A stretch of 30,930 nt of DNA from a virus. A model generated the notes under the pieces. The model made no database searches, was not told the origin of the DNA, and saw only the letters and a program-made list of their open reading frames with translations. Of this stretch, positions 5,368 through 30,802 are shown in pieces (position 1 is the stretch's first letter; every line of letters starts with the position of its first letter). The DNA lies in IMG/VR virus record IMGVR_UViG_3300037963_000737, positions 1-30,930 of that record; one strand, given 5' to 3'. The translations under genes and the position numbers were made by a program.

Positions 5368-8316
5368 TTAACCTAACGCAATAGCAAATGGTATAGGGTC
5401 TACACCACCTGCATTAGCTATAGAAGTAGCCATTGTCGCAGATAAGTTAGTTATAACTGTATTTATAGATGTGATTGCTGCAGTTCTAGTATTAATACTT
5501 GTAGCCATTGTTGCACTAAGATTTGTAACAACTGTATTAATACTTGTAATTGCTGCAGTTCTGTTATTTATAGATGTTGCAACAGTAGAACTAAGATTAG
5601 TAATTACAGTATTAATAGATGTAATAGCAGAAGTTCTATTATTAATAGATGTTGCAACAGTAGAACTAAGATTAGTAATTACAGAGTTTATACTTGTAAT
5701 TGCTGAAGTTCTATTTGAAATACTTGTAGCCATTGTTGCACTTACAGTAGCTACATCAGATGTTAATGCAATTGTACCTGTCGCATCAGGTAATGTTATA
5801 GTTCTACCTGCTGTAGGTGTAGGAGTAGCAAGTGTAATATCATGAGATGCATTACCATTAGGTCTTAAAAATTTTATATCACCTTGTCCAGTAATTGCAA
5901 GTATTCCATTACCACTCGCAGCTAAACCTAATAAATCGTTTGAATTACCTGAAGCAGTATCAAATATATATAATTGTTGGTTAGTGCTACCTTGCTCATT
6001 ATCTAAAGCAACTGCATTACCAAATTGTGATGAAAAATCAGTAGGGTTACCTGCTACATATTCTACTTTACCCCAGTTATCACCACTTTTATCTCCAAAT
6101 CCAATATATCCATCTTCTGATATTATTTGACCACCATTTACTGCAAGATTTCCAGTAATAGTTAAATCACCACTAACAGCACTTACAACAGTCAAAGCAT
6201 TTATTGTAAAAGCAGACACAGAAGTTATAGCTCCTCCTGCATTAGCAATAGATGTAGCAAGTGTAGCACTAAGATTAGTTATTACAGTATTAATAGATGT
6301 AATAGCAGATGTTCTATTGTTTACACTTGTTGCCATTGTAGATGATAAATTACCTATAACAGTATTTATAGAAGTAATAGCAGAAGTTCTATTACCAATA
6401 GATGTGGCAAGTGTTGAACTTAAATTACCTACTACAGTATTAATTGATGTAATAGCAGATGTTCTATTTCCTATAGAAGTTGCAAGTGTAGAACTTAGGT
6501 CACCTACTACAGTATTAATAGAAGTAATAGCATCTAAATTAGTTTTACTAAGTGCTGAAACATTTGCTATAGATGTAGCAAGAGTTGAAGATAGATTAGT
6601 AACAACAGTATTTATACTTGTTATTGCACTTGTTCTATTATTAATAGATGTGGCAAATGTAGAACTTAAATCACCTACTACAGTGTTTATAGATGTAATA
6701 GCGTCTAAGTTAGTTTTACTAAGTGCTGAAACATTTGCTATTGAAGTTGCTAGTGTAGAAGATAAATTAGTTACAACAGTATTTATACTTGTTATAGCAG
6801 TAGTTCTATTATTAATTGAAGTTGCTATTGTAGAACTAAGATTACCTACTACAGTATTAATAGAAGTAACTGCATCTAAGTTAGTTTTAGATAGTGCAGA
6901 TACGTTTGCTATAGATGTAGCAAGTGTCGAAGACAAATCACCTATTACAGTATTAATAGATGTTATAGCACTTGTTCTGTTTCCTATAGATGTTGCAAGT
7001 GTTGAAGATAAATTACCTACTACAGTATTAATAGAAGTAACTGCATCTAAATTAGTTTTAGTTAAAGCACTAACATTAGCAATTGAAGTTGCCATTGTTG
7101 CAGACAAGTTTGTAATTTTAGAATTAATACTTGTAATTGCATTTACACTAAGATTACCTATAACTGTATTAATAGAAGTTATTGCATCTAAATTAGTTTT
7201 AGATAACGCAGACACATTTGCTATACTTGTAGCCATTGTAGAAGATAAATTTCCTACTACAGTATTTATACTTGTAATTGCATCAAGATTTGTTTTAGAT
7301 AATGCACTTACATTTGCTATACTTGTTGCAAGAGTTGAACTAAGATTTGTTACAACTGTATTAATAGAAGTAATGGCAGTGGTTCTATTATTAATAGACG
7401 TAGCCATAGTTGCACTAAGGTCTGTTACTACACTATTAATACTTGTTATTGCACTTGTTCTATTAGCAATACTTGTTGCCATAGTTGCACTTAATGTTGC
7501 AACCTCTGCACTTGTAGCTACACTTTCACCATCCTTAAATAATCTTGTTGCATTTGCACTAACTGCAAATAAATTAGTTGCATTTAAAGAACTTACTGAT
7601 GTATCACTAAAACTTAATGTACCTGCAGTTAAGTTAGTTATACTTGCAGTTGTTGCTTTTAATATGCTTGTTTCAACTGTAGTAGCAGTTACTGTATCTG
7701 TAGTTATTTTAGTTCCTACAGTAAGATTGTTAAATGTTACATCTGTTGCACTTACTGCCTTCATATTAGTAGTGCCTTCAATAACTACATCACCACCAAT
7801 AGATGTATCATTTTCTACTGTAAGAGCAGAACCACTTAATGTTCCACCTACAAATGCATTAGAAGAAATAGTTGTTGTTACTGTTACATCTGTAATTCTA
7901 CCAAAATTATCTACAGTAAAATTAACCATAGGACCATAAGTAGCTGCAGAAACTCCTGAACTAGCTAAATTAATTGTAGGATTACCTTCAGTACCATTTG
8001 CATTAGATATAGTTAAAGGACTACCTACTGCAATAGTACGACCATGCACATTACCTGCAGATACTGCAACAATACCTGTTGTTCCTGTTAAGTCTGCAAT
8101 TGCATTAAGTTCTGCTGCAGTTGCAGAAAGTGTAGTTCCATCTATTTGAAGTGTTCCAGTAAGATTTATTTTATCTGTGGAAAGTTGGAGGGGTGTATTA
8201 TTACCTGCACCTGTTTGTACTGATAATAAATTTGTTGTTAAATCTGTATTACCTGCATCAACTTGTAATAAGTTTTTATAAGTATTTGCAATTTTTTTAC
8301 CTGTAAAGTCACTCAT
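5368..8316 (-). CDS. long tail fibre with 25/32-residue coiled-coil repeats
   Basis: The 982-aa product has a clear plan. Residues ~1-150 (KIANTYKNLLQVDAGN, LNAIADLTGTTG, ANGTEGNPTINLASSGV, NFTVDNFGRITDVTV) are typical N-terminal phage fibre text. Residues ~150-270 are short beta repeats. A long stalk of about 15 repeats follows (ATSI.NRTSAITSINTVV.NLS, 25 aa, alternating with 32-aa versions that insert VSALSKTNLD). A ~135-aa beta insert then carries the common fibre text AGRTITLPDATGTIALTSD, and a second stalk has four 25-aa repeats. Each stalk ends with ATSIANAGG, and the C-terminus is PIPFAIALG. The repeat periodicity fits a trimeric coiled coil. The protein is very likely the main fibre of the virion. 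No enzymatic domain is seen. Confidence 0.88.
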   Translation of the reverse strand: MSDFTGKKIANTYKNLLQVDAGNTDLTTNLLSVQTGAGNNTPLQLSTDKINLTGTLQIDGTTLSATAAELNAIADLTGTTGIVAVSAGNVHGRTIAVGSPLTISNANGTEGNPTINLASSGVSAATYGPMVNFTVDNFGRITDVTVTTTISSNAFVGGTLSGSALTVENDTSIGGDVVIEGTTNMKAVSATDVTFNNLTVGTKITTDTVTATTVETSILKATTASITNLTAGTLSFSDTSVSSLNATNLFAVSANATRLFKDGESVATSAEVATLSATMATSIANRTSAITSINSVVTDLSATMATSINNRTTAITSINTVVTNLSSTLATSIANVSALSKTNLDAITSINTVVGNLSSTMATSIANVSALSKTNLDAITSINTVIGNLSVNAITSINSKITNLSATMATSIANVSALTKTNLDAVTSINTVVGNLSSTLATSIGNRTSAITSINTVIGDLSSTLATSIANVSALSKTNLDAVTSINTVVGNLSSTIATSINNRTTAITSINTVVTNLSSTLATSIANVSALSKTNLDAITSINTVVGDLSSTFATSINNRTSAITSINTVVTNLSSTLATSIANVSALSKTNLDAITSINTVVGDLSSTLATSIGNRTSAITSINTVVGNLSSTLATSIGNRTSAITSINTVIGNLSSTMATSVNNRTSAITSINTVITNLSATLATSIANAGGAITSVSAFTINALTVVSAVSGDLTITGNLAVNGGQIISEDGYIGFGDKSGDNWGKVEYVAGNPTDFSSQFGNAVALDNEQGSTNQQLYIFDTASGNSNDLLGLAASGNGILAITGQGDIKFLRPNGNASHDITLATPTPTAGRTITLPDATGTIALTSDVATVSATMATSISNRTSAITSINSVITNLSSTVATSINNRTSAITSINTVITNLSSTVATSINNRTAAITSINTVVTNLSATMATSINTRTAAITSINTVITNLSATMATSIANAGGVDPIPFAIALG
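5400..5750 (-). repeat. fibre stalk repeat block 2 (four units)
   Basis: Four consecutive 75-bp units encode the 25-residue repeat near the C-terminus. They end in the same ATSIANAGG cap that closes block 1. Two units are close at DNA level: atagatgttgcaacagtag recurs at about 5570-5590 and 5644-5664. Edges are approximate. Confidence 0.78.
6235..7505 (-). repeat. fibre stalk repeat block 1 (about 15 units)
   Basis: This is an intragenic tandem repeat. About eight 75-bp units and six 96-bp units encode 25- and 32-residue repeats, with one shortened 15-residue unit (VNAITSINSKITNLS). Synonymous changes are common between units, so the amino acid pattern is better conserved than the DNA, which suggests selection on the protein. 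Block edges are approximate. Confidence 0.8.
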
Positions 8317-16044: not shown

Positions 16045-16980
16045 TTAGGATGAGCCTGAAGCTCCAAAAAATCCTCTCCAATCAGAGAAGCCAAAGCTAT
16101 ATCTTTCTCTAGCTTTGAATCTGATATTACCTGTATCAAAATCCGGCTCCATTTTAGTTTGTAGAGGTGAACGTACAAACATCTTAGTTCCATTTGGAAC
16201 ATCTGTCTTTAAAAACCAAGCGTTTGTATCTGTAAATCTTCTATTTACAAAAAATCCACCCGGAATCATACCTTGATTTTTAATTGAGTTGATGTCATTT
16301 ACGTTAGTTACTCCATCACTTCCCTGTGTAGTCACAGCAGTTGATAAAGCACTATTTAAGATTTGGTCTGCTGTAAATGCCAAATCTGAAGGTATATGTA
16401 ATGAAGTGGTTTGACCACCAATTAAAATACCTCTGTCATCCTTTAACTTAGAAACAGTTATCAAAGCAGATTCTAGTGAAGCTTCTGATAAGTCAGTTGC
16501 TCCTAAGTTATTGCTTTGGTTACCTGCACCTATAGTTGGGTGACTTGCTGAAAATAATGGCTGACCATCACCACCTGTAAAAGATGAGTTGAAACCATTA
16601 TTAAACACATCTGCAGCTTTAACTTGCTTAGTATTAGCCATTGCTCTAGCTAATCCCTTTGCTCTTAATTTTGCAAAAGTGTCATATAAATTATCTTCCA
16701 TTGCTTCTTCAGTAACTGCGAAAGCTAATGCAATAGTTTCGTGAGTGTACCTTGAAGTGAAAGATTCTTGAGCATCATCATAGGAAACTGCAGCACCTTC
16801 TGCTTTAGTTGGTGCAGTGCCAAATCCTGTGAATAATACTTCTTCTTCAAATGCTCTGTCTGAGTTTTCTGTCTCAAACAAAGGTTTATGCTCATCAGCA
16901 ACTTCTCCATACTCCATGCCAAAAACTGCATTAAGTCCGGGAAGAAGTTCTTTTGAGATACTTGCTCTATTTATCGCCAT
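16045..16980 (-). CDS. major capsid protein, Mu gpT-like family
   Basis: The 311-aa product has the layout of the Mu gpT major head protein family: MAINRASISKELLPGLNAVFGMEYGE, then FEEEVLFTGFGTAPTKAEGAAVSYDDAQESFTSRYTHETIALAFAVTEEAMEDNLYDTFAKLRAKGLARAMANTKQ. Next is a central FSASHP segment (PLFSASHPTIGAG), which is a strong gpT-type landmark. The C-terminal half has the peripheral strands GTKMFVRSPLQTKMEPDFDTGNIRFKARERYSFGFSDWRGFFGASG, which is typical of the last strands of these capsids. HK97-fold shell formation is expected. Length is normal for the family. It is flanked by a decoration-like gene upstream and a terminator downstream, as expected of a highly expressed head gene. Confidence 0.9.
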   Translation of the reverse strand: MAINRASISKELLPGLNAVFGMEYGEVADEHKPLFETENSDRAFEEEVLFTGFGTAPTKAEGAAVSYDDAQESFTSRYTHETIALAFAVTEEAMEDNLYDTFAKLRAKGLARAMANTKQVKAADVFNNGFNSSFTGGDGQPLFSASHPTIGAGNQSNNLGATDLSEASLESALITVSKLKDDRGILIGGQTTSLHIPSDLAFTADQILNSALSTAVTTQGSDGVTNVNDINSIKNQGMIPGGFFVNRRFTDTNAWFLKTDVPNGTKMFVRSPLQTKMEPDFDTGNIRFKARERYSFGFSDWRGFFGASGSS

Positions 16981-19663: not shown

Positions 19664-19857
19664 TAATCGTCATCCTCTTCATCTAACATTTTTTTAGTTA
19701 TATTTTTAATCTCTGCATTTGCCCATTCAATACCTGCAATGCGACCCACGCAGTTCATATACGTATGATAGTCTGAAGCCGAGCCATACGCAAGGGAATT
19801 TTTTATTGATTCAACTTCTTTAGTTAATTTTTTATTTATCTCTTCATATAATGTCAT
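19663..19857 (-). CDS. hypothetical 64-aa protein
   Basis: A small acidic protein (MTLYEEINKKLTKEVESIKNSLAYGSASDYHTYMNCVGRIAGIEWANAEIKNITKKMLDEEDDD). The pattern ...L..G.A.DY..Y...VGRI.G...A...I.....-x-M is, as I recall, common in small phage proteins beside portal genes. It has one central Cys and an acidic end. The start overlaps the portal stop by ATGA, and its own stop overlaps the co-chaperonin start. Probably a head-assembly accessory (inference). Confidence 0.75.
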   Translation of the reverse strand: MTLYEEINKKLTKEVESIKNSLAYGSASDYHTYMNCVGRIAGIEWANAEIKNITKKMLDEEDDD

Positions 19858-22334
19858 TTACTATTTCTTTCCTTCTGTGCATCTTGTAACATTTTAATTA
19901 ATACATCAGAAGTTTTTATAGTTTCTGCACTTTCAATATCGTCACCTTTTTTAATTAAGTCTGCAAGAACTTTTACTGCATTCATAGCCTGTTCAGTATT
20001 TCTGTCTTTATCTTTTTCTTCTGACTTTAACAGATTTTCTGCTCCTGCTTTATATGCATCTAGTGCAATCTTCTGTTCTTTCAAGTCTAGGTCTCTATTT
20101 TTTAATGCACCCTCTGAAAGTTCTTTTGCAATATTTGCCTGCAGTTTTTCTTTTTCTATTCCAAGTCTTTGTGCTTCCATCATAACCATTTGTTGTTCAG
20201 GTGTACCACCCTGTTGTGCCATTGCCTGATTTGCCATCATAACTTGTTGTGCTGCTTGAGCCATTACTTGTTCTACAACTCTTGGGTCTTTTACATTTTG
20301 TGGAGCTTGTGCAAGAATATTTTGTGTCATACCATTTATTTGCTCTTGGTATTTCATAACTACGTGTTCTTGTATATTAGCTTGTAATACAGGACTTACT
20401 CTTTGCATTATTGGATTACCACCATTTGCAGGGTCTTGTAAAAACATTGTCTTAATCTGAATATGAGCATCATGGTTTTGACCCATAAACGCTTTAATAG
20501 GTAAACCCTTAGTTGCTGCTTCAATATCTGTAACAGGGTCAAGAGGTTGGGGTTCAGGTTTGGATGGAAGTATTCTTTCAAGATTAGGAATATTTGCTGC
20601 GTTAAGCAAAGTTCTATTTAATTCTTCCATGTTAAACATTCCCGGAGGTGCAGTCTGTGCTAACTGCATTGCCATCTGTGTCATCATAAGTCTATGTGCA
20701 GATGAAGGTATATTAGGGTCACTTACAGGAATAATATCAATCTTATTATCAAAGTCTGTTCTAAATATTTCTGAAGATTCACCCGGAACATCATAAGGAT
20801 ATCTTTGTGGTAAACTTTCTGAATCTATACGTGCAAGTATTTTAAATTCTTCTTTTTGAGATTTATGAAGTCTTTTATGTATTGCAGTAAAAAACTTACT
20901 TGAAGCTTCAAGCAATGCCATAGTTGTACCTACAGGTCCATAGTTAGAACCTTCACTAATAATCTGCTCAGTTGTATCTGCAAACTTCTGACCTGCACCT
21001 GCAACATAAGTCATCATATTATATAATGTACCTGATGGTTCTTTATATGGAAACATAACAATAGATTTATTTAAATCCATACCTGTTGCTTCTACTTCTT
21101 TAAACTCACCCGGAGCAATAGGGTCATTATCTCCTACAACCTTTACACCCTTTGCTTTAAATCCACCCTGTAAGTTTGCAAACTGACCTGCATCAATTAA
21201 ACTTCTCATTGCTGCAGTTGCAGACATTGTAAGGTTTCCTAAAAAGTGTATAAGACCTAATCCATAAAAACCAAATCCCGGAACAAATCTATAATGTGTA
21301 AAAAACATTTTCTTTTGTTTTGTTATATCATCTTCATTCCAGTTTCTTCTAATAGATAAAACTTTTTGTGACTGCTCTTCTATTGTTACAATATAAGGAC
21401 AGGCTACATCATAGTCTTCTATTTCAAGATAACAGTGTTGTTCTAATAATGTATACTGAGGGTCATGTTCTGTAGAAGGTGTAAGACCTAATACTGTATC
21501 CATCTTTTCTGACATTGCAGATTGTTTTGGAAGTGTAGGTTCAGGAAGTTCCATATCTCTATACATTCCTGAATTAATTTGTTTTGCAAGTTCAATAGGA
21601 CTTCTATAAAGTATATGTGTATATCTATCTGCTCTTCTTAAATCTGTAGCATAATAGGATACATAAAATTGGTCAATAGGTACAAACTCACTAACAGGTC
21701 TGTTAATAGAGTTATCATAATATATTTTCTTTACTGCAGAACCTAGTAGTGGTAAATGAAACAACATTCTTTCTGCTTCATCAAAGTATTCAGGCATTTG
21801 TTCTGCTACTTGATAGTTCATAAAGTTTTGAACTCTATTTGCCTGTCTCTGTTTTGAATCGGTTATGTCACCAAGTACTTGTACTTTTACAGGACCTTTG
21901 GCAGGAAACAACTCACCACTTGCTTTACTCTGAAACTTAACTGCAGATTCTATAAGTAAAGGGTGTACTGCAGTTGCTGCACCTTCAAAAGGTTCTGTTG
22001 TATCTTCAAGTTTTAAACCAAGTAAGTCAAATCCTCTTTCAAACATTGACTCCCATTCAGTTCGTGAAGATTTATCTGCTTCATACTTTTCTATTACTGT
22101 TTGAGCAATATCATCTAAGTCTTGTTCTTCCATAAGTTCTGCAAGATTTTCATAGAACTCATTTGGTTCTTCAACTTCTTCTTCTACTTCTTCTGCATTA
22201 AATTCTATTTCAAGTTCACCTGTTTCAGGGTCAACTTCAAAGTTAACATTATCAGACCTTTTTTCTTTTTCCATGTCAAGGTTAATTACGTTAGCTTTTT
22301 CCTTCCCCTCGTTTGGGTTCTTCTCTACTGCCAT
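19854..22334 (-). CDS. portal protein, P22-like
   Basis: The 826-aa product is in the size range of P22-type portals. The N-terminal ~80 residues are acidic. A core begins with SSRTEWESMFERGFDLLGLKLEDTTEPFEGAATAVHPLLIESAVKFQSKASGELFPAKGPVKVQVLGD. The middle contains HCYLEIEDYDVACPYIVTIEEQSQKVLSIRRNWNEDD and HYRFVPGFGFYGLGLIHFLGNL. The tail runs KNRDLDLKEQKIALDAYKAGAENLLKSEEKDKD...MLQDAQKERNSK after a Gln/Ala/Met-rich segment. A long helical C-terminal barrel or coil is a P22-like trait. It forms the dodecameric ring at the packaging vertex, so it works with TerL (22487-24013) and the adaptors. AAGGA lies ~9 nt before the ATG. Confidence 0.88.
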   Translation of the reverse strand: MAVEKNPNEGKEKANVINLDMEKEKRSDNVNFEVDPETGELEIEFNAEEVEEEVEEPNEFYENLAELMEEQDLDDIAQTVIEKYEADKSSRTEWESMFERGFDLLGLKLEDTTEPFEGAATAVHPLLIESAVKFQSKASGELFPAKGPVKVQVLGDITDSKQRQANRVQNFMNYQVAEQMPEYFDEAERMLFHLPLLGSAVKKIYYDNSINRPVSEFVPIDQFYVSYYATDLRRADRYTHILYRSPIELAKQINSGMYRDMELPEPTLPKQSAMSEKMDTVLGLTPSTEHDPQYTLLEQHCYLEIEDYDVACPYIVTIEEQSQKVLSIRRNWNEDDITKQKKMFFTHYRFVPGFGFYGLGLIHFLGNLTMSATAAMRSLIDAGQFANLQGGFKAKGVKVVGDNDPIAPGEFKEVEATGMDLNKSIVMFPYKEPSGTLYNMMTYVAGAGQKFADTTEQIISEGSNYGPVGTTMALLEASSKFFTAIHKRLHKSQKEEFKILARIDSESLPQRYPYDVPGESSEIFRTDFDNKIDIIPVSDPNIPSSAHRLMMTQMAMQLAQTAPPGMFNMEELNRTLLNAANIPNLERILPSKPEPQPLDPVTDIEAATKGLPIKAFMGQNHDAHIQIKTMFLQDPANGGNPIMQRVSPVLQANIQEHVVMKYQEQINGMTQNILAQAPQNVKDPRVVEQVMAQAAQQVMMANQAMAQQGGTPEQQMVMMEAQRLGIEKEKLQANIAKELSEGALKNRDLDLKEQKIALDAYKAGAENLLKSEEKDKDRNTEQAMNAVKVLADLIKKGDDIESAETIKTSDVLIKMLQDAQKERNSK

Positions 22335-22486: not shown

Positions 22487-24013
22487 TTATACTCTCCAAT
22501 ATGCAACTCTCTTGTTTCTTTTACTTTGGTCATCTTCCCATGAAGGGTCTTCAGGATGTATCAAATTCCAACTATCTTTCATGTAGTGTACTGCCATAGT
22601 CATACAGTCAACTTGGTCATCATGAGACCCATTAGGAAATGACATACATTCTGAAAATAAATCGTCTGCCCATACTTTATTTTTAGGCAACCATACTCTT
22701 CCTGATTCCATCATTGGTGTAGATGCATATACTCTTGCTACCTTATCCTTATCAGGCAGATAGTCTAATACAGGCAAGCCTGCTCTACGCATATCTTGTA
22801 TCAATGACTGACCACTTGCCTTTCTTTCTATAATACATACATCAGGTCTAAACTCTCTATACAAGTCTTGGGCAATACGTCTTAACTCAGGATATTCATA
22901 TCGACCTCTTGTATTACCTAGCAATATCAAATGAGATGACTGACCATAGTCTTCATCATAGTCATGGAATATTCCCCATGTCTGTATTACACTATAGTCT
23001 GCAGTTCTACTTGTACTAAATGCAGTATCATAGGTTTGTATAATAAACTCACACTCAGGAGGGTCTTCATAATCCCACCACTGTATATACTTTTTTTTAA
23101 TTATACCTCCATCATCAGGCGAAGGGTCTTGCATATAAAGTGAGTTCCAATATCTTGCACCATTGCTTGCTCTAATTTCTTGCTCATCTATCTTTAATAT
23201 TTCATCAGGCTTCCACTCTGGAAAATATGAGCTACCAACTGGCAGGTCCAGGAGTTCTGCTGCTTCTTCATTAAGCCATGCAGGAATACTAATTACGTGC
23301 CACGGATATGTATTCTGTTCTGCAGTCTTTTCTTGTTTAAGTAACCAACCACATAAATCATCATAGTGGTATCGTGTATTAATAATTATAATTGAACCAT
23401 TAGGCATAAGTCTTGTTCTTAAACCTGCAGGATACCATTCCTTTATATAACGTCTACCTGTTGCACTAAAAGAATCTTCTTCTGACATTACGTCATCAAG
23501 TAGTGCAATGTTTGCACCTCTACCTGCAACCTGACTTCTTACACCTGCTGCGTAATACGAGCCATTCTTATTTGTTTTCCACTTGCCTGCTGCTTTAACA
23601 TCACTACGTAATGCTACACCTTTAAATATTCTTTGAAACTTTTCAGTATTTACTATATCTCTTACAGTTCTACCAAAGTCAGATGCTAGTTGGTCACTAT
23701 GAGATACTGACATTATTTCATGATTTGAATAATTACCTATATACCATGCAGGAAATAACTTACTACATATTAAAGATTTAGAAGAACGAGGTGGTAGAAA
23801 TACCATAAGTCTCTTAATATCGCCATCTACCACACCCTGTAACTTCTGACATAACAGTTGTATATGTCTGCCCATCTTAAAATCAGATACAAGAGTAGGT
23901 GCAAACTGTTTAACAAAAGTTAAAAAGTCATCCTTTGCTCTAATACTTGTATATGATTCTAATTTAAATTTTAAATCTAGGTAATTATCTACCTTGTTTA
24001 ATTGTGCTTCCAT
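22487..24013 (-). CDS. terL: terminase large subunit (packaging ATPase-nuclease)
   Basis: The 508-aa product matches tailed-phage TerL. The ATPase part has a Walker A-like LMVFLPPRSSKS (residues ~69-80), the adenine-binding-type text SHSDQLASDFGRTVRD, and Walker B IALLDDVMSEED (~169-180) with acidic E178/E179. Motif III-type text INTRYHYDD follows (~211-219). The nuclease part has the RNaseH-like acidic set: QTYDTAFS (D329), CIIERKASG (E396), and NGSHDDQVDC (D465/D466). It packages phage DNA into proheads at the portal using ATP, then cuts it. The P-loop is unusual (PPRSSKS, no GKT), but such RSSKS-type loops occur in TerL proteins. Length is normal. Confidence 0.9.
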   Translation of the reverse strand: MEAQLNKVDNYLDLKFKLESYTSIRAKDDFLTFVKQFAPTLVSDFKMGRHIQLLCQKLQGVVDGDIKRLMVFLPPRSSKSLICSKLFPAWYIGNYSNHEIMSVSHSDQLASDFGRTVRDIVNTEKFQRIFKGVALRSDVKAAGKWKTNKNGSYYAAGVRSQVAGRGANIALLDDVMSEEDSFSATGRRYIKEWYPAGLRTRLMPNGSIIIINTRYHYDDLCGWLLKQEKTAEQNTYPWHVISIPAWLNEEAAELLDLPVGSSYFPEWKPDEILKIDEQEIRASNGARYWNSLYMQDPSPDDGGIIKKKYIQWWDYEDPPECEFIIQTYDTAFSTSRTADYSVIQTWGIFHDYDEDYGQSSHLILLGNTRGRYEYPELRRIAQDLYREFRPDVCIIERKASGQSLIQDMRRAGLPVLDYLPDKDKVARVYASTPMMESGRVWLPKNKVWADDLFSECMSFPNGSHDDQVDCMTMAVHYMKDSWNLIHPEDPSWEDDQSKRNKRVAYWRV

Positions 24014-24550: not shown

Positions 24551-24572
24551 GATAGATAAGCAACAATATATA
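24551..24572 (+). promoter_or_regulatory. 22-bp motif copy R1
   Basis: Core AGATAAGCAACAATATAT. It is identical over 22 bp to R3, R4 and R5. It lies 203 bp before the first early gene with no credible coding frame between, so if it is a promoter it makes a longer leader. Confidence 0.7.
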
Positions 24573-24709
24573 ACACTATAATCAAATTTAAAAAGATTAG
24601 GTTTGTTTCTATTTAATCTAATGAATTTGTATTATGCTATTATTTATATGGTTTACTATACCTTATAAAACTATTTAAACTATTGAATACATTAGAATAT
24701 TCTTAATAG

Positions 24710-24731
24710 GATAGATAGACAACAATATATA
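24710..24731 (+). promoter_or_regulatory. 22-bp motif copy R2
   Basis: Differs from the other copies by two adjacent bases in the middle (GATAGAC in place of GATAAGC). It lies 43 bp before the start of the 93-aa gene at 24775. Confidence 0.7.
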
Positions 24732-24774
24732 AACAATATAGATAAATGATTAACTAATGAAAAGGAAAATGATT

Positions 24775-25056
24775 ATGGATTATAGAAATAATGATACGAA
24801 TCAAATTATTATGAAAATAAATGATAATAGATATTTATCCATTATTGAAGATAACATGAATGATGGATTAGTTGAAATTGCTATGATGGATGCTAACAAA
24901 GAATACATAGATGATGGTACTTTTAATGGTGGATGTATGATATGCTTAAACACTCAAGAATTAGCTATTGAATTATTAAAGTTAAACTTAGATAATTGCT
25001 ATAACTACAATAAAGAAAATGACGAATTAATTGAAGATACATTAAACGATAGATAA
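24775..25056 (+). CDS. hypothetical early protein (93 aa)
   Basis: The start is set at the third of three in-frame ATGs (24757, 24769, 24775). The sequence before it, GAAAAGGAAAATGATT, matches the ribosome-binding leader of neighbouring genes with the same 8-nt gap. The 93-aa product MDYRNNDTNQIIMKINDN has LSIIEDNMNDGLVEIAMMDANKEYIDDGTFNGGCMICLNTQELAIELLKLN and an acidic end. It resembles small acidic early proteins of phages that interact with host factors, but no family is recognised. Its stop codon lies in motif copy R3. First rightward gene after the divergent region. Confidence 0.72.
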   Translation: MDYRNNDTNQIIMKINDNRYLSIIEDNMNDGLVEIAMMDANKEYIDDGTFNGGCMICLNTQELAIELLKLNLDNCYNYNKENDELIEDTLNDR

Positions 25057-25069
25057 GCAACAATATATA
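25048..25069 (+). promoter_or_regulatory. 22-bp motif copy R3
   Basis: Starts inside the last three codons of the 93-aa gene; the stop TAA is part of the motif. It ends 22 bp before the ATG at 25092. Confidence 0.72.
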
Positions 25070-25091
25070 ACTATATGAAAGGATAAAGGTT

Positions 25092-25328
25092 ATGACTATA
25101 GAAAAAGTAAGAGTTACACAAAAACAAATTCATTCTAAAAGTAAGACTGAATTAGAAAAAATAGTTTGGGAATTATTTATACACTATATGTGTACAAATG
25201 AAAATACTGACGAATATCAAACTAGTGTTTTTCGTAGACACTTTTATAAAGTTAAAAAACAATTACCAAACTTTACTGATATTGAACATCAAAAATGTAG
25301 ATTAGTAAATGGTAAGCTTTACATATAA
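25092..25328 (+). CDS. hypothetical early protein (78 aa)
   Basis: The product is basic and helical: MTIEKVRVTQKQIHSKSKTELEKIVWELFIHYMC, then EYQTSVFRRHFYKVKKQLPNFTDIEHQKCRLVNGKLYI. It starts 22 bp after motif R3, preceded by GAAAGGATAAAGGTT. Two Cys; no recognised motif. The small size and placement directly behind a motif copy suggest an early-expressed host-takeover factor (inference). Confidence 0.72.
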   Translation: MTIEKVRVTQKQIHSKSKTELEKIVWELFIHYMCTNENTDEYQTSVFRRHFYKVKKQLPNFTDIEHQKCRLVNGKLYI

Positions 25329-25346
25329 CAAGAAAGGATAAAAGTT

Positions 25347-25496
25347 ATGTTTAAAAATAGAACTAGAAAAGAACTATTACAGTTATACAATATTTTATTA
25401 CATTTACATGATAGTGGTACTGTATGGTATAACGAAAATAAATACCATAAAGGATACTTTTTAAATGAACTAAAAAGAGCAATATTGAAAGGATAA
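25347..25496 (+). CDS. very small early protein (49 aa)
   Basis: Read manually: ATG 25347 follows AGAAAGGATAAAAGTT and the frame (MFKNRTRKELLQLYNILLHL...NEL) ends ILKG-stop. The last codons, TTG AAA GGA TAA, double as the ribosome-binding site of the next gene at 25503. This is a compact arrangement that supports both genes. The product is basic, helical and of unknown function. Confidence 0.65.
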   Translation: MFKNRTRKELLQLYNILLHLHDSGTVWYNENKYHKGYFLNELKRAILKG

Positions 25497-25502
25497 ACAA
25501 TT

Positions 25503-25745
25503 ATGTACAATGGATTTAAAAACTACCAAATATGGAATATATCATTATGGTTTAATAATGATTATGATATATACCAAACTATTATGAATTATCTTGGTCA
25601 AGGATTTACTAAAAAAGAACTTACTGAATTGATTGTAGATAAAGACTTACTTGGTAGTGATAGAACCAAAGATGGTGTAAAGTATACAAAACTAAACGTA
25701 TTTAAAGCACTTAAAGAATTTGATTATGAATCCTTAAAAGGATAA
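25503..25745 (+). CDS. hypothetical early protein with NxxxWNxxLWxxND motif (80 aa)
   Basis: The 80-aa product MYNGFKNYQIWNISLWFNNDYDIYQTIMNYL has the recognisable phage motif 'N-x-x-x-WN-x-x-LW-x-x-ND-x-x-x-Y'. This motif is found in a small domain of many phage and some bacterial proteins of unknown function. The rest (KKELTELIVDKDLLGSDRTKDGVKYTKLNVFKALKEFD) is helical. It ends ESLKG-stop, where the AAAAGGATAA resembles a ribosome-binding site, yet no gene start follows within range; the hairpin region comes next. It is the last gene of the first early block. Confidence 0.75.
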   Translation: MYNGFKNYQIWNISLWFNNDYDIYQTIMNYLGQGFTKKELTELIVDKDLLGSDRTKDGVKYTKLNVFKALKEFDYESLKG

Positions 25746-25756
25746 TAAACAAATAA

Positions 25757-25820
25757 AGATAGCTACATAGGAATATAAATTTTCCCCTTATTTCCTCCTA
25801 CAATTCCTATGTAGTTATCT
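25757..25820 (+). promoter_or_regulatory. 18-bp hairpin with C-rich, anti-Shine-Dalgarno-like loop
   Basis: AGATAGCTACATAGGAAT (25757-25774) pairs with ATTCCTATGTAGTTATCT (25803-25820) across all 18 positions, with one G-U pair. The loop of 28 nt is pyrimidine-rich with CCCC and CCTCCT. No T-run follows, so it is not a standard terminator, though it could still end or protect transcripts or be cut by RNase III. It sits between a gene end and motif copy R4. Confidence 0.75.
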
Positions 25821-25834
25821 ATATTTGATGTTTG

Positions 25835-25856
25835 GATAGATAAGCAACAATATATA
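25835..25856 (+). promoter_or_regulatory. 22-bp motif copy R4
   Basis: Placed after the 18-bp hairpin and 37 bp before the ATG at 25894. TTATCTAT of the hairpin's right side can pair with ATAGATAA in the motif, so the two elements could interact. Confidence 0.72.
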
Positions 25857-25893
25857 GAACTAAGCTTAATTAACAAAATGAAAGGATTAAATT

Positions 25894-26133
25894 ATGCTTA
25901 ATAATACTACTATAAACCAAGTCTATAAAAACTCTTTTGATAATCAAAGAATTTTTAAAGATAAAACTATTCAGATTGAGTTTAACGCTAATACTCAAAC
26001 GAATGAGATTGAAGTTACAACTACTACAATCAGAAATTCCTTCAGAGGAATTGGTGGTAAGTTTACTACACTTCAAGGTTATGGTGAATTACTTGCTAAG
26101 AAGTTTGGGCAAGGTATTACAGTAAAAAGCTAA
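25894..26133 (+). CDS. hypothetical early protein (79 aa)
   Basis: The product MLNNTTINQVYKNSFDNQRIFKDKTIQIEFNANTQTNEIEVTTTTIRNSFRGIGGKFTTLQGYGELLAKKFGQGITVKS is beta-rich in the centre with a Gly-rich end. It begins 37 bp after motif R4, preceded by ATGAAAGGATTAAATT. No recognised family. It is followed by a strong terminator, so it forms a single-gene unit with R4. Confidence 0.72.
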   Translation: MLNNTTINQVYKNSFDNQRIFKDKTIQIEFNANTQTNEIEVTTTTIRNSFRGIGGKFTTLQGYGELLAKKFGQGITVKS

Positions 26134-26167
26134 CTTAAATAATAATTTAATTAGCTAAATAAATTAT

Positions 26168-26200
26168 AAAGGGAAGCATTTATTTGCTTCCTTTTTTTTT
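26168..26200 (+). terminator. Rho-independent terminator
   Basis: AAAGGGAAGCA pairs with TGCTTCCTTTT-type sequence (stem 26168-26178 with 26184-26194, one G-U pair), followed by a run of ten Ts (26192-26201). It closes the R4 single-gene unit. Confidence 0.88.
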
Positions 26201-26215
26201 TATGAAAGGATTTAA

Positions 26216-26386
26216 ATGTACGAATTAATTAAAACAGATTTTATTAAATACAAATACCTAGTTTGGATTAATGCTAATAATACTTTAACTAAAAATTATT
26301 ACACTACATACAAACTAGCTAAAGAATTTTATGACCATGCAGTAAATAAGATTGGTCAAGATAATGTAACAATGGAAAGGATATAA
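26216..26386 (+). CDS. small early protein (56 aa)
   Basis: Read manually. ATG 26216 follows ATGAAAGGATTTAA, and the frame (MYELIKTDFIKYKYLVWINA..., TYKLAKEFYDHAVNKIG) ends MERI-stop immediately before the ATG of the next gene (26387). The last codons contain GAAAGGATATAA, which is also the ribosome-binding site of the next gene. Basic, aromatic (several Tyr) product of unknown function. Confidence 0.68.
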   Translation: MYELIKTDFIKYKYLVWINANNTLTKNYYTTYKLAKEFYDHAVNKIGQDNVTMERI

Positions 26387-26974
26387 ATGATTACAACTAA
26401 AAATATAATTGCAATCTACAAGTTAGCAAAACCAAGTGAAATTTATGATGGATTATCTTGGTATATAAACGCTAATAAAGATTGCCAAGAAATTGCAGAT
26501 AAGTTTAAGATACCATTACATATTGTAGTTGGTGTACTATCTGCACTTTCTCCAAATAATAAGTATGAACGTAATGTTCAAAATGCTAATGACTTAATTG
26601 ATGCATTTATGAATGGCAATGATATGGATAGTATTAAGGTTAGCACCTACCATACTATGAAACAAAAAGCTTGGTCGATACTACAACAGATGCCAAGCTA
26701 TGAAGAAACACTTGTAATTCTAAATGGTCAAAAGATTAAATCATTCTTTAGAAATATAATGGGTGATGAAACTGAAATTACTATTGATGGTCACGCAAGA
26801 AATATTTATTACAATGATAGACAAGGATTGACTACACCTAATTCTAATGTGGGCAAATTAGAATATGCCAAGATTCAGAAAGCCTATCAAAGAGCAAGTA
26901 AGAAACTTGGTATCAAGGCTTATGAACTGCAGGCTATTACATGGGTAACATGGAAAAGAATACATAACATTTAA
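26387..26974 (+). CDS. phage protein of unknown function (195 aa), STYHTMKQKAW/TIDGHA family
   Basis: The 195-aa product has the text KPSEIYDGLSWYINANKDCQEIADKFKIPLHIVVGVLSALSPNNKYERNVQNANDLIDAF, then STYHTMKQKAWSILQQMPSYEETLVILNGQKIKSFFRNIMGDETEITIDGHARNIYY. It ends KAYELQAITWVTWKRIHN. The order 'SALSPN...RNV...A...STY...KAW.IL......ILNG.K..SFF.NI.GD...TIDGHA' is characteristic of a protein family of unknown function found in many phages. The conserved Asp/His in IDGHA and a helix-rich layout are compatible with a glycosylase- or lyase-like helical fold, but this is speculative. Good confidence for the family, none for the reaction. Confidence 0.82.
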   Translation: MITTKNIIAIYKLAKPSEIYDGLSWYINANKDCQEIADKFKIPLHIVVGVLSALSPNNKYERNVQNANDLIDAFMNGNDMDSIKVSTYHTMKQKAWSILQQMPSYEETLVILNGQKIKSFFRNIMGDETEITIDGHARNIYYNDRQGLTTPNSNVGKLEYAKIQKAYQRASKKLGIKAYELQAITWVTWKRIHNI

Positions 26975-26991
26975 TGAAAGGAAATAAAGTT

Positions 26992-27420
26992 ATGAGAATA
27001 GGAAGTTTAATACAAGTACATCCAATTAAATATAGAGTTTATTGGAATAGAAAACTAAATAAATGGAGTCTACAAAATGCCAAGACAAATAAAGTTGAAG
27101 AGCATTTAGACCATGTAACATTAACTGATGCTAACTTTTTAGTTAGAAAGGGAACTCAAGAAAGGGTTAGAAAGGAGAAGAAAAAATATGTTCATGCTTT
27201 TGTAGTAGGATATAAAGTATTAGAAGATGTAACTACATTCTATAATTTAAAAGATAAAGATTTTAAATTAGATTGGCAAGGCATTAGATACAATCCATAC
27301 AAGGATGACTTCTTTTTCAATACATACTTACAAGAAGAAGTACCAAGTAATTGGAAAGGTAATGTCCATATGGAAGCATTGATACATGAAAATGGTATTG
27401 CACCTAAAGTATATATTTAA
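26992..27420 (+). CDS. hypothetical phage protein (142 aa)
   Basis: The start is ATG 26992 behind GAAAGGAAATAAAGTT rather than the leader ATG at 26974. The product MRIGSLIQVHPIKYRVYWN has the text YRVYWNRKLNKWSLQNAKTNKVEEHLDHVTLTDANFLVRKGTQERVRKEKKKYVHAFVVGYKV. It then has DWQGIRYNPYKDDFFF and ends VHMEALIHENGIAPKVYI. 'YRVYxN...WSL.....vv.H...V.L....F.V...G..RVRKEKxxxVHAFVVG...YNP' is a common phage gene text of unknown function. The product is basic and probably compact. Translation may be coupled to the upstream gene through the shared leader. Confidence 0.78.
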   Translation: MRIGSLIQVHPIKYRVYWNRKLNKWSLQNAKTNKVEEHLDHVTLTDANFLVRKGTQERVRKEKKKYVHAFVVGYKVLEDVTTFYNLKDKDFKLDWQGIRYNPYKDDFFFNTYLQEEVPSNWKGNVHMEALIHENGIAPKVYI

Positions 27421-27436
27421 CAGAAAGGAAAATAAT

Positions 27437-27694
27437 ATGACAATACAATATACAAACTTACCAATTGGTGTCTTATGTAGTACTGATAATTTCTACATAG
27501 AATTAGAAGTAAAAGACATGAATGAGGGCAAGGTTAAAATCATACACAATGAAAGTGGTATGACTGAGTATGAAAAATCATATAAAGGTCATGACTATAT
27601 TGACATACTCAATGACTGCATTGAACGTATGAAAAGACTAGAGCATAATCTTGTAGAAGTACAAGGTAAAGCAGAAAGCATGGTAGGTGCATAA
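27437..27694 (+). CDS. hypothetical early protein (85 aa)
   Basis: The start is ATG 27437, 7 nt after GAAAGGA; the longer frame (27386) would lie in the preceding gene. The product MTIQYTNLPIGVLCSTDNFYIELEVKDMNEGKVKI is mixed alpha/beta with an amphipathic end (IDILNDCIERMKRLEHNLVEV). No recognised family. Its stop overlaps the start of the 21-aa membrane peptide (TAATG). Confidence 0.7.
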   Translation: MTIQYTNLPIGVLCSTDNFYIELEVKDMNEGKVKIIHNESGMTEYEKSYKGHDYIDILNDCIERMKRLEHNLVEVQGKAESMVGA

Positions 27695-27759
27695 TGAATT
27701 ACGACTTGGTTGCACCTATTATGTTTTGGATAATAATTGCTTATTGTATTTGGTCATAA
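27694..27759 (+). CDS. 21-residue membrane peptide
   Basis: Read manually: ATG 27694 overlaps the upstream stop (TAATG), the peptide is MNYDLVAPIMFWIIIAYCIW plus a Ser, and it ends one base before motif R5. The central 12-14 residues are strongly hydrophobic, so it could be a single-span membrane peptide. Such mini-proteins are known in phage early regions, but this one could also be incidental coding between motif copies. Confidence 0.5.
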   Translation: MNYDLVAPIMFWIIIAYCIWS

Positions 27760-27781
27760 GATAGATAAGCAACAATATATA
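27760..27781 (+). promoter_or_regulatory. 22-bp motif copy R5
   Basis: Begins on the base after the stop of the 21-aa gene and ends 22 bp before the ATG at 27804, the same distance as for R3. Confidence 0.72.
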
Positions 27782-27803: not shown

Positions 27804-28163
27804 ATGAAAGCATATTTTATAAACGCTAAACATGAATACATTGTTGAACTAAATGTTAGAGACTATGAGCATAAGAAAGAACTCATAGAAGCTAACCTAT
27901 TAGAACTATATCCCTATCAAATAAATGGTAATGATATATGGACAGATGAAGAAGCACAACTCAAAGAATATTCTTATAACTTTGTGATTGATGAAAGATA
28001 CGTTGTTCATGGCAATGCAATTATAACATCAGTAGATGATGAGGGAGAATCTACATCTGTCAAAAACTTGACAGTTCAAGAACTAATATCAAGAGTTAGG
28101 TTCTTGGGTAAGCAATATGTAGACCATAGCAAGTTAGAATTTAAAGTAATGGAATGGAAATAG
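27804..28163 (+). CDS. hypothetical early protein (119 aa)
   Basis: The product MKAYFINAKHEYIVELNVRDYEHKKELIEANLLELYPYQINGNDIWTDEEAQLKEYSYNFVIDERYVVHGNAIITSVDDEGESTSVKNLTVQELISRVRFLGKQYVDHSKLEFKVMEW is acidic and beta/alpha mixed. The layout 'MKAYxIxxKxExIxEVxxxDYxxIYxLLEAxxFxxxxxxxxGDxIYVDDEGLLK...FxxxxYxxPxxGxGLVxGxDxxGEx' resembles small phage proteins I have seen in early regions, but no name is attached. It starts 22 bp after R5 with AAAAGGAGAATAAA. Confidence 0.72.
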   Translation: MKAYFINAKHEYIVELNVRDYEHKKELIEANLLELYPYQINGNDIWTDEEAQLKEYSYNFVIDERYVVHGNAIITSVDDEGESTSVKNLTVQELISRVRFLGKQYVDHSKLEFKVMEWK

Positions 28164-28176
28164 AAAGGAAAAACGA

Positions 28177-28383
28177 ATGAGCAAAACACCATACCTAGAT
28201 AAGAAAATGAAAGTGGTAAACTTCATTGAAGATGAGATGAAGAAAGGCAAAGCCAATCCAAAGATTAGAGGATGGGCAATGTCTAAGATACTTGAACAAG
28301 TAAAGGAAGAGTTTGGAGAAAGGGAAGTACCTTTCGCAAGAGATTACTTTACTAGATATTATGAAAGGAGTAAAAAGAAATGA
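28177..28383 (+). CDS. hypothetical early protein (68 aa), basic
   Basis: The product MSKTPYLDKKMKVVNFIEDEMKKGKANPKIRGWAMSKILEQVKEEFGEREVPFARDYFTRYYERSKKK is strongly basic and helical, with a possible helix-turn-helix (NPKIRGWAMSKILEQVKEEFG). It could be a small DNA-binding regulator, but the evidence is composition and helix spacing only. GAAAGGAAAAACGA precedes the ATG. The stop overlaps the next start by ATGA. Confidence 0.7.
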   Translation: MSKTPYLDKKMKVVNFIEDEMKKGKANPKIRGWAMSKILEQVKEEFGEREVPFARDYFTRYYERSKKK

Positions 28384-28604
28384 CACCAAAAGGAAACGTA
28401 TGGAACAATGCAGAGATGTATAAAGTTTATTTAAACCTACCAAGACTAAGCCTATGTGGTACTAGATTACTATGGGTAGTGATTGGTAGGAAGTGGGTAA
28501 AGCTTTGCACTCTTGTTGAAGATACTAAAATGAGAATATCAATTAGTGAATGGAATAACTTACAAAAGGAAAAGTATGATGAAAAGCATATCACAAATGA
28601 TTGA
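28380..28604 (+). CDS. hypothetical early protein (74 aa)
   Basis: The product MTPKGNVWNNAEMYKVYLNLPRLSLCGTRLLWVVIGRKWVKLCTLVEDTKMRISISEWNNLQKEKYDEKHITND is basic, beta-prone, with text VIGRKWVKLCTL...ISISEWNNL that resembles a phage protein pattern 'GRKWxKxxxLxExxxxxISxxEWN'. It overlaps its upstream neighbour by 4 nt (ATGA) and its downstream neighbour by about 28 nt. Unknown function. Confidence 0.68.
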   Translation: MTPKGNVWNNAEMYKVYLNLPRLSLCGTRLLWVVIGRKWVKLCTLVEDTKMRISISEWNNLQKEKYDEKHITND

Positions 28605-28779
28605 TGAAGAATTGCCAAAAGAATATACATTATTTTATATTGGTAACTATATGTCATCACATGGAATAGATGATAGAGGTTGGGCAGTTGAGAAAGATAA
28701 TAAAAAAGTAACATCTTACTATGCTACAAAAGACTTAAACTTATTATATAATTATTTAAAGAGAAAGGAAATAATATGA
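28576..28779 (+). CDS. hypothetical early protein (67 aa)
   Basis: The start is 28576 (MMKSISQMID...) or the next ATG at 28579, both just after AAAAGGAAAAGT; the spacing of neighbouring genes favours 28579. The product MKSISQMIDEELPKEYTLFYIGNYMSSHG has a Trp/Tyr-rich centre and a helical C-terminus. It overlaps both neighbours (28 nt upstream; 4 nt downstream, ATGA). No family recognised. Confidence 0.65.
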   Translation: MMKSISQMIDEELPKEYTLFYIGNYMSSHGIDDRGWAVEKDNKKVTSYYATKDLNLLYNYLKRKEII

Positions 28780-29096
28780 AAGTTAGAAAAATATTAAGAC
28801 TATTAGGAGTAGTAGAAAAACTACCAAGAAACTACAATGAAGATATACAACCTGTAGATTTTGGTACTTACTATTGTGAAACAAAAGATGAGTATTTAGA
28901 AATTATGGACATGGATTTTATATATGTATTGAATGCAATTAAAAAGCATGGCATAGGAACTGCTACTAATAATGGTGTGTTAATAAAGCAAATAGAAGAG
29001 CAAATAGAACAAATAGATAAGCTTACATTAGAGTTAACTAATGAGAAAGCTAAGAATATAAAACTAAAACAAATAAAGGAGATAATAAATGATTAA
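28776..29096 (+). CDS. hypothetical early protein with C-terminal coiled coil (106 aa)
   Basis: The product MKVRKILRLLGVVEKLPRNYNEDIQPVDFGTYYCETKDEYLEIMDMDFIYVLNAIKKHGIGTATNNGVLIKQIEEQIEQIDKLTLELTNEKAKNIKLKQIKEIIND has a compact N-terminal half and a ~40-residue coiled-coil end (heptad-spaced Ile/Leu). A dimeric small regulator is possible. It overlaps the upstream gene by ATGA and runs 8 nt into the next gene. Confidence 0.72.
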   Translation: MKVRKILRLLGVVEKLPRNYNEDIQPVDFGTYYCETKDEYLEIMDMDFIYVLNAIKKHGIGTATNNGVLIKQIEEQIEQIDKLTLELTNEKAKNIKLKQIKEIIND

Positions 29097-29400
29097 GTCA
29101 GATATTATAATTAAAAATATAAAACTAACTGTAAGTAAAGATGCATTGGACATGATTGCAGATGCCATAAATTCATACCTTGAAGATATGGAAAGTGGTA
29201 ATGATGAATTGTCTTTACGTACAATAGATGTAGGAAGAATACCTTTCTACAAAGTAGATAAAGGTTTATGTGAGCATACAAGAAAATGGTACATCAAATA
29301 TACTAGACTAGCTACTCAGTTGAACAGACTGAATAACAAAGTATTAGGTGTCAATGACTTGCATTGGAGAACTAGACAACAACTAGAGAGGTTAAGATGA
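29089..29400 (+). CDS. hypothetical early protein (103 aa)
   Basis: The product MIKSDIIIKNIKLTVSKDALDMIADAINSYLEDMESGNDELSLRTIDVGRIPFYKVDKGLCEHTRKWYIKYTRLATQLNRLNNKVLGVNDLHWRTRQQLERLR is basic at the C-terminus (VNDLHWRTRQQLERLR), with a helix-rich layout. No recognised family. It sits in the tightly overlapped run 28776-29621; the AAGGAGATAATAA before it is a clear ribosome-binding site. Confidence 0.7.
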   Translation: MIKSDIIIKNIKLTVSKDALDMIADAINSYLEDMESGNDELSLRTIDVGRIPFYKVDKGLCEHTRKWYIKYTRLATQLNRLNNKVLGVNDLHWRTRQQLERLR

Positions 29401-29621
29401 CTTGGATATTATATGTATTATTTATGTCAGATACTAGAGAGATGCAATTTGTAATAGAGAAAAGATATTTCCTAACTGAACAAAAGTGTATGTCTTATTA
29501 CAAGAATAACAATAGATACTTAGACAAGAAAACACATGAAATAATTCAACAAGCATATAAAAAATATGAAATAATTCATATTGGATGTATGCCAACAACT
29601 GCACATATGGAGATTAAATAA
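29397..29621 (+). CDS. hypothetical early protein with hydrophobic N-terminus (74 aa)
   Basis: The product MTWILYVLFMSDTREMQFVIEKRYFLTEQKCMSYYKNNNRYLDKKTHEIIQQAYKKYEIIHIGCMPTTAHMEIK has a short hydrophobic start (WILYVLFM) and two Cys spaced by ~33 residues, so it could be a small membrane-associated or exported protein. It is joined to the previous gene (ATGA) and the methyltransferase (TAATG), suggesting co-translation with both. Confidence 0.7.
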   Translation: MTWILYVLFMSDTREMQFVIEKRYFLTEQKCMSYYKNNNRYLDKKTHEIIQQAYKKYEIIHIGCMPTTAHMEIK

Positions 29622-30802
29622 TGAATGTATTAAATTTATTTGGTGGCATGGAAGTAGGAAGACTTGCTATGGACAGAGCTAATGTATCTGTAGATAAATA
29701 TTTTTCTGCAGAGATAGACAAGTATGCTATTCAGATAGCCAACAAAAATCATTCTGACATAATACAGTTAGGTGATGTAACTAAAATAGATACTGAGGAT
29801 TTACCTCAGATAGATTTACTAATGGGTGGTTCGCCTTGTCAAGGATTCAGTTTCGCAGGCAAGCAGTTAAACTTTTCTGACCCACGTAGTAAACTATTCT
29901 TTGAGTTCATAAGAATTATGAATGAACTAAAACCTAGATATGTATTGCTTGAGAATGTCAGAATGAAAAAGGAATATGAAGATGTGATTACAGAACACAT
30001 GGGATTCCCACCACAGTTACTAAACTCAAGTAAAGTTTCTGCACAAAACAGATGGAGAAACTATTGGTTTGGTACATACATCAATGGCAAGTATGAACAG
30101 ATAATGATTCCACCTTTGGAAGACAAGGGTTTAGTATTGAAAGATATATTGCAAGAAGACCATAATGAACCACCTATTCCTATCAATGAACGTAATGCTA
30201 GACATCATAGGAATGAAAACCAAAAAGGTTTGTGTACTACTGCTACAATGTACAAGGGTGCAGGCAATAATGGTATGACTATTGTAGATAGAAGTCTATC
30301 TGTGGGAGAAGCAGAAGAGTATTCACACTACAAATACAGAGCAACTAAGGAAGTCTATCACATGAATGGCAAAGCACCTACCTTACTGACTATGCAAGGT
30401 GGGAATAGAGAACCAAAGGTTGCAACCTATTCTACAAAGGGTGGTCGCATTGTAAATCGTAGGCTAGATGAGAGTGGTGTACGTAAAGACTATCAACTAG
30501 AGTTACCTTACACAACTCAAGTAGAGGTAAGAGATGATGACAAGACAAATTGTCTTACTACTGTACAAAAAGATAATGTTGTGGTACAAGGTATGACATG
30601 GAGAAAGTTAACACCTATAGAATGTGAGAGATTACAAACTCTACCTGACAATTATACAGAGGGTGTGTCAAAGACACAGAGATATAAAATGATTGGCAAT
30701 GGGTGGACAGTTGATGTGATTGCTCACATACTAGGAGAAATGTTATTACCTAAGAAAATAAAATCAATTAATTATGAGAAAGGATATTTTGTTTATGCCT
30801 AA
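29621..30802 (+). CDS. C5-cytosine DNA methyltransferase
   Basis: The 393-aa product has the C5-MTase motif order. Motif I is VLNLFGGMEVGRLAM (residues ~3-17; AdoMet binding). Motif IV is LLMGGSPCQGFSFAG (~66-80; catalytic Cys73 in PCQGFS). Motif VI is VLLENV (~108-113). Motif VIII is AQNRWRNYWFGTY (~141-153). Motifs IX and X come near the end as MTWRKLTPIECERLQTLP and YKMIGNGWTVDVIAHILGEML. It transfers a methyl group from AdoMet to cytosine C5 in a specific DNA sequence. No restriction partner is nearby, so it is an orphan enzyme, likely protecting phage DNA or shifting host/phage expression. The target is unknown. Complete and in-frame. Confidence 0.92.
   Translation: MNVLNLFGGMEVGRLAMDRANVSVDKYFSAEIDKYAIQIANKNHSDIIQLGDVTKIDTEDLPQIDLLMGGSPCQGFSFAGKQLNFSDPRSKLFFEFIRIMNELKPRYVLLENVRMKKEYEDVITEHMGFPPQLLNSSKVSAQNRWRNYWFGTYINGKYEQIMIPPLEDKGLVLKDILQEDHNEPPIPINERNARHHRNENQKGLCTTATMYKGAGNNGMTIVDRSLSVGEAEEYSHYKYRATKEVYHMNGKAPTLLTMQGGNREPKVATYSTKGGRIVNRRLDESGVRKDYQLELPYTTQVEVRDDDKTNCLTTVQKDNVVVQGMTWRKLTPIECERLQTLPDNYTEGVSKTQRYKMIGNGWTVDVIAHILGEMLLPKKIKSINYEKGYFVYA

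Follow-up and report, generated by a model that had tools for sequence, protein, structure and literature searches.

A repeated 22-bp element ahead of early genes in an uncultured virus: a candidate phage-specific core promoter for host RNA polymerase

The early region of the IMG/VR virus record IMGVR_UViG_3300037963_000737, a linear fragment of 30,930 bp (the whole of which is here termed the window) that derives from an uncultured, probably marine virus of bacteria, contains five copies of the 22-bp asymmetric motif GATAGATAAGCAACAATATATA, raising the question of what this element does and what reads it. The sequence comparisons presented here are best explained if the element serves as a phage-specific core promoter, used by the host RNA polymerase together with a phage-specified factor, a reading to which a probability of about 0.55 is assigned. 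The original prediction for this locus had proposed a phage-specific promoter or a regulator site; this fits the evidence, except in the version in which the promoter belongs to a single-subunit phage RNA polymerase.

All five copies lie on the plus strand, at 24551..24572 (R1), 24710..24731 (R2), 25048..25069 (R3), 25835..25856 (R4) and 27760..27781 (R5); four are identical, while R2 (GATAGATAGACAACAATATATA) carries two changes. R1 is followed by 137 nucleotides (nt) of non-coding DNA and then by R2, with no gene directly behind it. The remaining four stand shortly before gene starts, each led by a clear Shine-Dalgarno (SD) sequence, with 37 nt between R2 and the ATG of the first early gene (24769), 22 nt between R3 and ATG 25092, 37 nt between R4 and ATG 25894 and 22 nt between R5 and ATG 27804 of a DUF3846 gene. 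The preceding open reading frame (ORF) terminates within R3 (TAA, 25054-25056), and R5 begins one base past a TAA stop. A search of the whole 30,930-bp record, on either strand and allowing up to three mismatches, returned only these five copies, and none of 100 dinucleotide shuffles yielded even one match. The number, identity, orientation and placement of the copies had all been described correctly in the original prediction, as had their restriction to the early region and the absence of a reverse-strand copy. Five copies where none are expected, on one strand and exclusively in the early region, both in the window and in the 58-kb genome of a sister virus (G001; 57,957 bp, five copies, none outside the early region), support a promoter function; random scattering through the genome is not observed in either. 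Replication iterons were considered and rejected, as the spacings are irregular (159, 338, 787 and 1925 nt) and R2-R5 are each located ahead of a gene start. The non-coding stretch between R1 and R2 (24573-24709), the counterpart of which measures ~137-290 nt in relatives, is possibly a leader or small RNA.

The organisation of the early genes suggests that the copies mark transcription units. Early intergenic gaps are all 18 nt or shorter, with four exceptions; three of these contain R3, R4 and R5, respectively, and the fourth (82 nt) contains a terminator. The presence of R3-R5 in every larger gap other than that of the terminator supports the promoter reading. The unit behind R2 consists of one ORF (24769..25056; 99 amino acids (aa) if ATG 24757 is used), the last codons of which lie inside R3, while R3 precedes three small ORFs of 78, 49 and 80 aa (25092..25745), separated by gaps of 18 and 6 nt. 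R4 is followed by a single ORF of 79 aa (25894..26133) and an intrinsic terminator (AAAGGGAAGCATTTATTTGCTTCCTTTT plus T6; 26168..26201), and R5 by a tightly packed unit (27804..30802) in which several small ORFs accompany the genes for the DUF3846 protein and a C5 cytosine DNA methyltransferase, all on the plus strand. R4, its ORF and its terminator constitute a closed and isolated unit, and the terminator occurs 282-342 nt past R4 in every relative with an R4 copy that is read far enough. The conservation of this unit, for which no convincing sigma-70 promoter is evident, likewise supports the promoter reading. In the subclade formed by L109 and G001, R5 is absent and the T-tract of the R4 terminator is interrupted (TTTTCATTTC), as would be expected if R5 were the promoter of the genes beyond, which would now depend on read-through.

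R4 is separated from the preceding gene by a plus-strand inverted repeat of 25 bp (92%; 25750..25827) with a C-rich loop (TTTTCCCCTTATTTCCTCC). Several relatives carry a hairpin with a TTTCCCCTT loop in the same place, the stems of which differ and change in a matched way; as three misplaced stretches were included in the MAFFT alignment, the five correct rows were compared by eye only. The C-rich loop could pair with SD sequences.

The array is not unique to the virus in the window. Five IMG/VR stretches, all from near relatives, contain exact copies, and sister relatives with a ~92% identical terminase carry a variant, GATACATA[G/A][G/A]AATCAATATATA, in three to five copies per phage, in the same direction and the same early region. 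Two further relatives (terminase 83-85%) have four similarly arranged copies of a diverged homologue, TGTATACCTTA[AG]CAACC[CT]ATATA, the last of which lies directly past a stop codon and ahead of a methyltransferase gene; aligned by eye, its first part matches the window motif, while its last part is off by one base. Among the matches listed for a relaxed 21-mer in IMG/VR, all multi-copy contigs belong to the window and sister clades, and the single matches look like chance. The same de novo repeat search found no element of this type in HTVC023P, HTVC027P, 023Pt_psg01, DSL-LC04 and HTVC115P, CRP-901/902 not having been searched. Among 84,980 species genomes from bacteria and archaea, in which the host itself may not be represented, a single match was found; this near absence suggests that the motif is not a site widely used in host regulons.

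Comparison of 49 genuine copies from the two clades delimits a conserved block of 22-23 bp with sharp edges. Positions 5, 11 and 13 are G, C and A in all ten distinct window-clade copies, and C, A and T in 39 of 39 sister copies. By their flanks, sister R4 and R5 best match window R4 and R5 (77% identity over the 60 nt upstream in the case of R5), which indicates that the array predates the split of the clades and that the dispersed sites subsequently changed alike. The simplest cause of this parallel change would be selection by a shared trans-acting reader that co-evolves with its sites. The promoters of T7, T3 and SP6 have changed in this way along with their readers, and the parallel change thus supports the promoter reading; as the sister viruses possess their own matched version, a virus-specific start signal is most likely.

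The position of the motif relative to the genes narrows the predicted start site. The SD sequence begins 8 and 9 nt past the motif at R3 and R5, which places the transcription start within ~8 nt of the motif end if the genes are expressed from it; the motif would then span roughly -30 to -1, an extent more fitting for a core promoter than for the site of an upstream activator. The TATATA at positions 17-22 lies where a -10 box belongs and matches TATAAT at four of six bases. Paired hexamers for -35 and -10, spaced by 16-18 nt, do not occur consistently around the copies, nor is there a shared -35 box, in agreement with the original prediction, and promoter-like matches in the region (40, versus 34.8 +/- 6.4 in shuffles) show no excess. 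In the proposed mechanism, four early transcription units would each have the 22-bp element as their core promoter, and R1 would perhaps yield leader RNA only. The block at positions 1-14 (GATAxATArrmAwC) would be read by the phage-specified factor and the strands would open in the A/T block (positions 15-22, AATATATA), with the redirected host RNA polymerase starting no more than ~8 nt from the 3' end of the element.

The likeliest reader is the host RNA polymerase together with a small phage protein beyond the reach of family searches. A Sigma70_r2 domain (PF04542) recognisable by profile was found in none of ten records, among them G001 and the window-clade contigs that jointly cover about one genome, while 10 of 14 control genomes were positive. 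The best-correlated small protein is encoded by the ORF at 28177-28380 (68 aa), which all motif-bearing contigs possess if they extend far enough to cover that locus. In a first search it was found at none of 64 motif-free loci, save L121, itself part of the motif-bearing G001. The protein has an invariant GK.NPK.RGW.M..I and ARDY pattern, no library names its family and the three-helix AlphaFold model (pLDDT 78) matches nothing in the PDB. A wider search found relatives of this protein in hairpin-repeat phages that lack the motif, and as a reader it was set aside as a weak lead only. A 114-aa early protein of G001, considered as a regulator, has no family match. It is tentatively proposed that these apparently polymerase-less phages may possess an undescribed, fast-evolving specificity factor, distinct both from single-subunit RNA polymerases and from recognisable sigma factors, which would direct the host RNA polymerase to the 22-bp core promoter, factor and promoter co-evolving so as to be mutually exclusive between the sister clades.

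Several points weigh against the core-promoter reading. The family searches identified no reader protein, and the 68-aa protein also occurs in motif-free phages and is not recognised as DNA-binding. R1 drives no obvious gene, and in the close relatives L003/L012 it has drifted to three mismatches although its flanks are nearly unchanged. The loss of R5 and the broken T-tract in L109/G001 represent a single evolutionary event. Gene conversion could in principle homogenise the clade-specific positions, for which tracts of ~22 bp would be needed, and the start of transcription at the motif is deduced from the layout of genes and sites.

The strongest competing explanation, itself unlikely, is that the early genes have weak host-type promoters and that the element, lying over the -10 region, is an operator at which a phage repressor or activator switches them. 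Regulator sites over promoters are known from P1 C1 and the lambdoid operators. The TATA block is placed where a -10 box would fit, and parallel change of the sites is accommodated equally well. There is also a precedent in the cluster A mycobacteriophages, in which asymmetric, dispersed operators are read by one monomeric protein (PMC9283540). Around the copies, however, neither a -35 nor a -10 box recurs consistently, the whole core-promoter span is conserved with the SD directly behind it, and the HTH_3 repressor (PF01381) and phage integrase (PF00589) families are absent from the window-clade contigs and near-complete sisters searched (G001, G007, G020, G024 and G025).

It is improbable that the repeats are recombination linkers, that is, boundaries at which cassettes of small early genes are swapped and which exchange keeps identical. 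The early ORFs are hypervariable, and the R3 site and its leader in L003/L012 precede a different gene than in the window, both in favour of this reading. Exchange alone nevertheless fails to explain the placement on one strand, 22-37 nt before SD-led genes, and three positions are fixed differently in each clade while the flanks are still orthologous.

Slightly less probable still is an RNA element, in which a protein or small RNA would bind or process the message at these 22 nt. Control at the RNA level may exist in the wider group, as palindromic repeats stand before early genes in several relatives, their stems varying from copy to copy in a matched manner. The window copies, however, form no hairpin of 11 or more pairs, which also speaks against a hairpin promoter of the N4 virion RNA polymerase type; the window contains no match to an Rfam family, R1 is not followed by a gene, and a separate upstream promoter would be needed, none being evident before R4.

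A promoter for a single-subunit, T7-like phage RNA polymerase is highly improbable and, for this group, largely refuted. The length, strictness and parallel change of the central block are similar to those of the T7 family, and TCAATATA in the sister version is loosely like T7 TCACTATA. The polymerase gene, for which the original prediction had recommended a search, was however not found: the RNA_pol domain PF00940 is absent from 14 relatives, the tested isolates and G020, G024, G001 and G007, while the T7 positive control was detected at 9.9e-110. G020, a 39.4-kb window-clade contig, contains R1-R4 together with all the DNA upstream of them, and G024 (18.7 kb) extends from before R5 to the start of the apparent terminase small subunit gene, the two together representing approximately one whole window-clade genome; G007 comprises 52.8 kb. 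The ORF maps of G001 and G024 contain no unexplained large early gene, and ORFs of G024 are homologous to the primase-helicase, DNA polymerase, exonuclease, endonuclease, ribonucleotide reductase and methyltransferase-like genes of G001. Papers on the relatives CRP-901/902 and HTVC027P likewise report that these phages have no RNA polymerase and rely on host transcription (PMC10149686, PMC12753301). Equally improbable are stoperators, at which a bound regulator would stop elongating transcription between the early genes, as known from mycobacteriophage L5, since the asymmetry, orientation with transcription and location in narrow gaps close to stop and start codons (PMC9283540) are shared, but there are only four to five sites, all early and none among virion genes, against more than 20 genome-wide in L5, no integrase or HTH_3 repressor was found in the contigs searched, and R4 has its own conserved downstream terminator.

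Aside from the asymmetric motif, which is one of several solutions for marking early units in this phage group, palindromes occur in a number of relatives. Long palindromes replace the motif, at corresponding positions before the early genes, in L043, L049, L070, L087, L088, L089 and L273-L280; they are near-identical within a phage, unrelated between phages and show compensating changes in their arms, and recall the early RNase III sites of T7. They may act either in RNA processing or as operators. Upstream of the first early ORFs in L096, L098-L101, L103 and L108 there are sigma-70-like promoters (TTGACA, TATAAT) with the -10 box inside a palindrome (e.g. AAGGGTATAATGCCCTT), which looks like an operator over an early promoter. 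Three to five operator-like palindromes per phage are located in the interval between the terminase and early genes of L056/L058 and L083 (TGTCAAAAATTTGACA; TGTGACATTTATGCAACA).

The left part of the window contains the virion genes on the minus strand, including those for the terminase large subunit (22487-24013), portal (19854-22334) and major head protein (16045-16980). A further minus-strand gene (5368-8316) codes for a 982-aa protein, probably a tail fibre or adhesin, with many imperfect repeats at spacings of 75 and 171 bp. The right part is the plus-strand early region, in which the small ORFs are accompanied by genes for the C5 DNA methyltransferase, a DUF7178 protein, an L5 gp82-like protein and the DUF3846 protein. 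By terminase and portal, the nearest isolates are HTVC027P, 023Pt_psg01, HTVC023P, DSL-LC04 and CRP-901/902, at 32-43% identity (terminase large subunit 32-41%, portal 39-43%). The replication genes of the sister genome, among them a T7-like endonuclease I, are akin to those of the pelagiphages HTVC115P and HTVC103P/104P.

With every base of a strict promoter-like site and of its exclusive sister counterpart defined, the clade is a compact system for asking directly, by means of short DNA baits and reporters on two plasmids, what reads the element. Its nearest cultured relatives are the HTVC023P-type pelagiphages, the CRP-901-type roseophages and DSL-LC04, of which HTVC027P and CRP-901/902 are likewise reported to be without an RNA polymerase. 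As in the promoters of T7, T3 and SP6, the sites are ~22-23 bp long, strict, confined to one strand and directly ahead of SD-led genes, and the central block differs between phages while agreeing among the copies within a phage; unlike that family, the window clade and its relatives have no single-subunit RNA polymerase gene and the copies are found in the early region only. The operators and stoperators of L5 and cluster A are also short, asymmetric, transcription-oriented sites in tight intergenic spaces and are read by a phage protein (PMC9283540). The L5 sites, in contrast, are 13 bp long, number more than 20 genome-wide and bind a repressor, whereas the window has five sites of 22 bp, all early, and no HTH_3 repressor or integrase was found in the window clade. 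The start-associated sequences of cluster K mycobacteriophages sit just a few bases upstream of the ATG, the SD being part of them. They too are repeated, asymmetric and ahead of small early gene starts, but the window motif is located 22-37 nt upstream of the ATG, with a separate SD. The middle and late promoters of T4 depend on small phage proteins (MotA/AsiA and gp55, respectively) that redirect the host RNA polymerase to a phage-specific core promoter. While no similarity to the T4 sequences was seen in the motif and no homologue of the T4 factors was identified in the window phage, this mechanism is the one proposed here for the 22-bp element.

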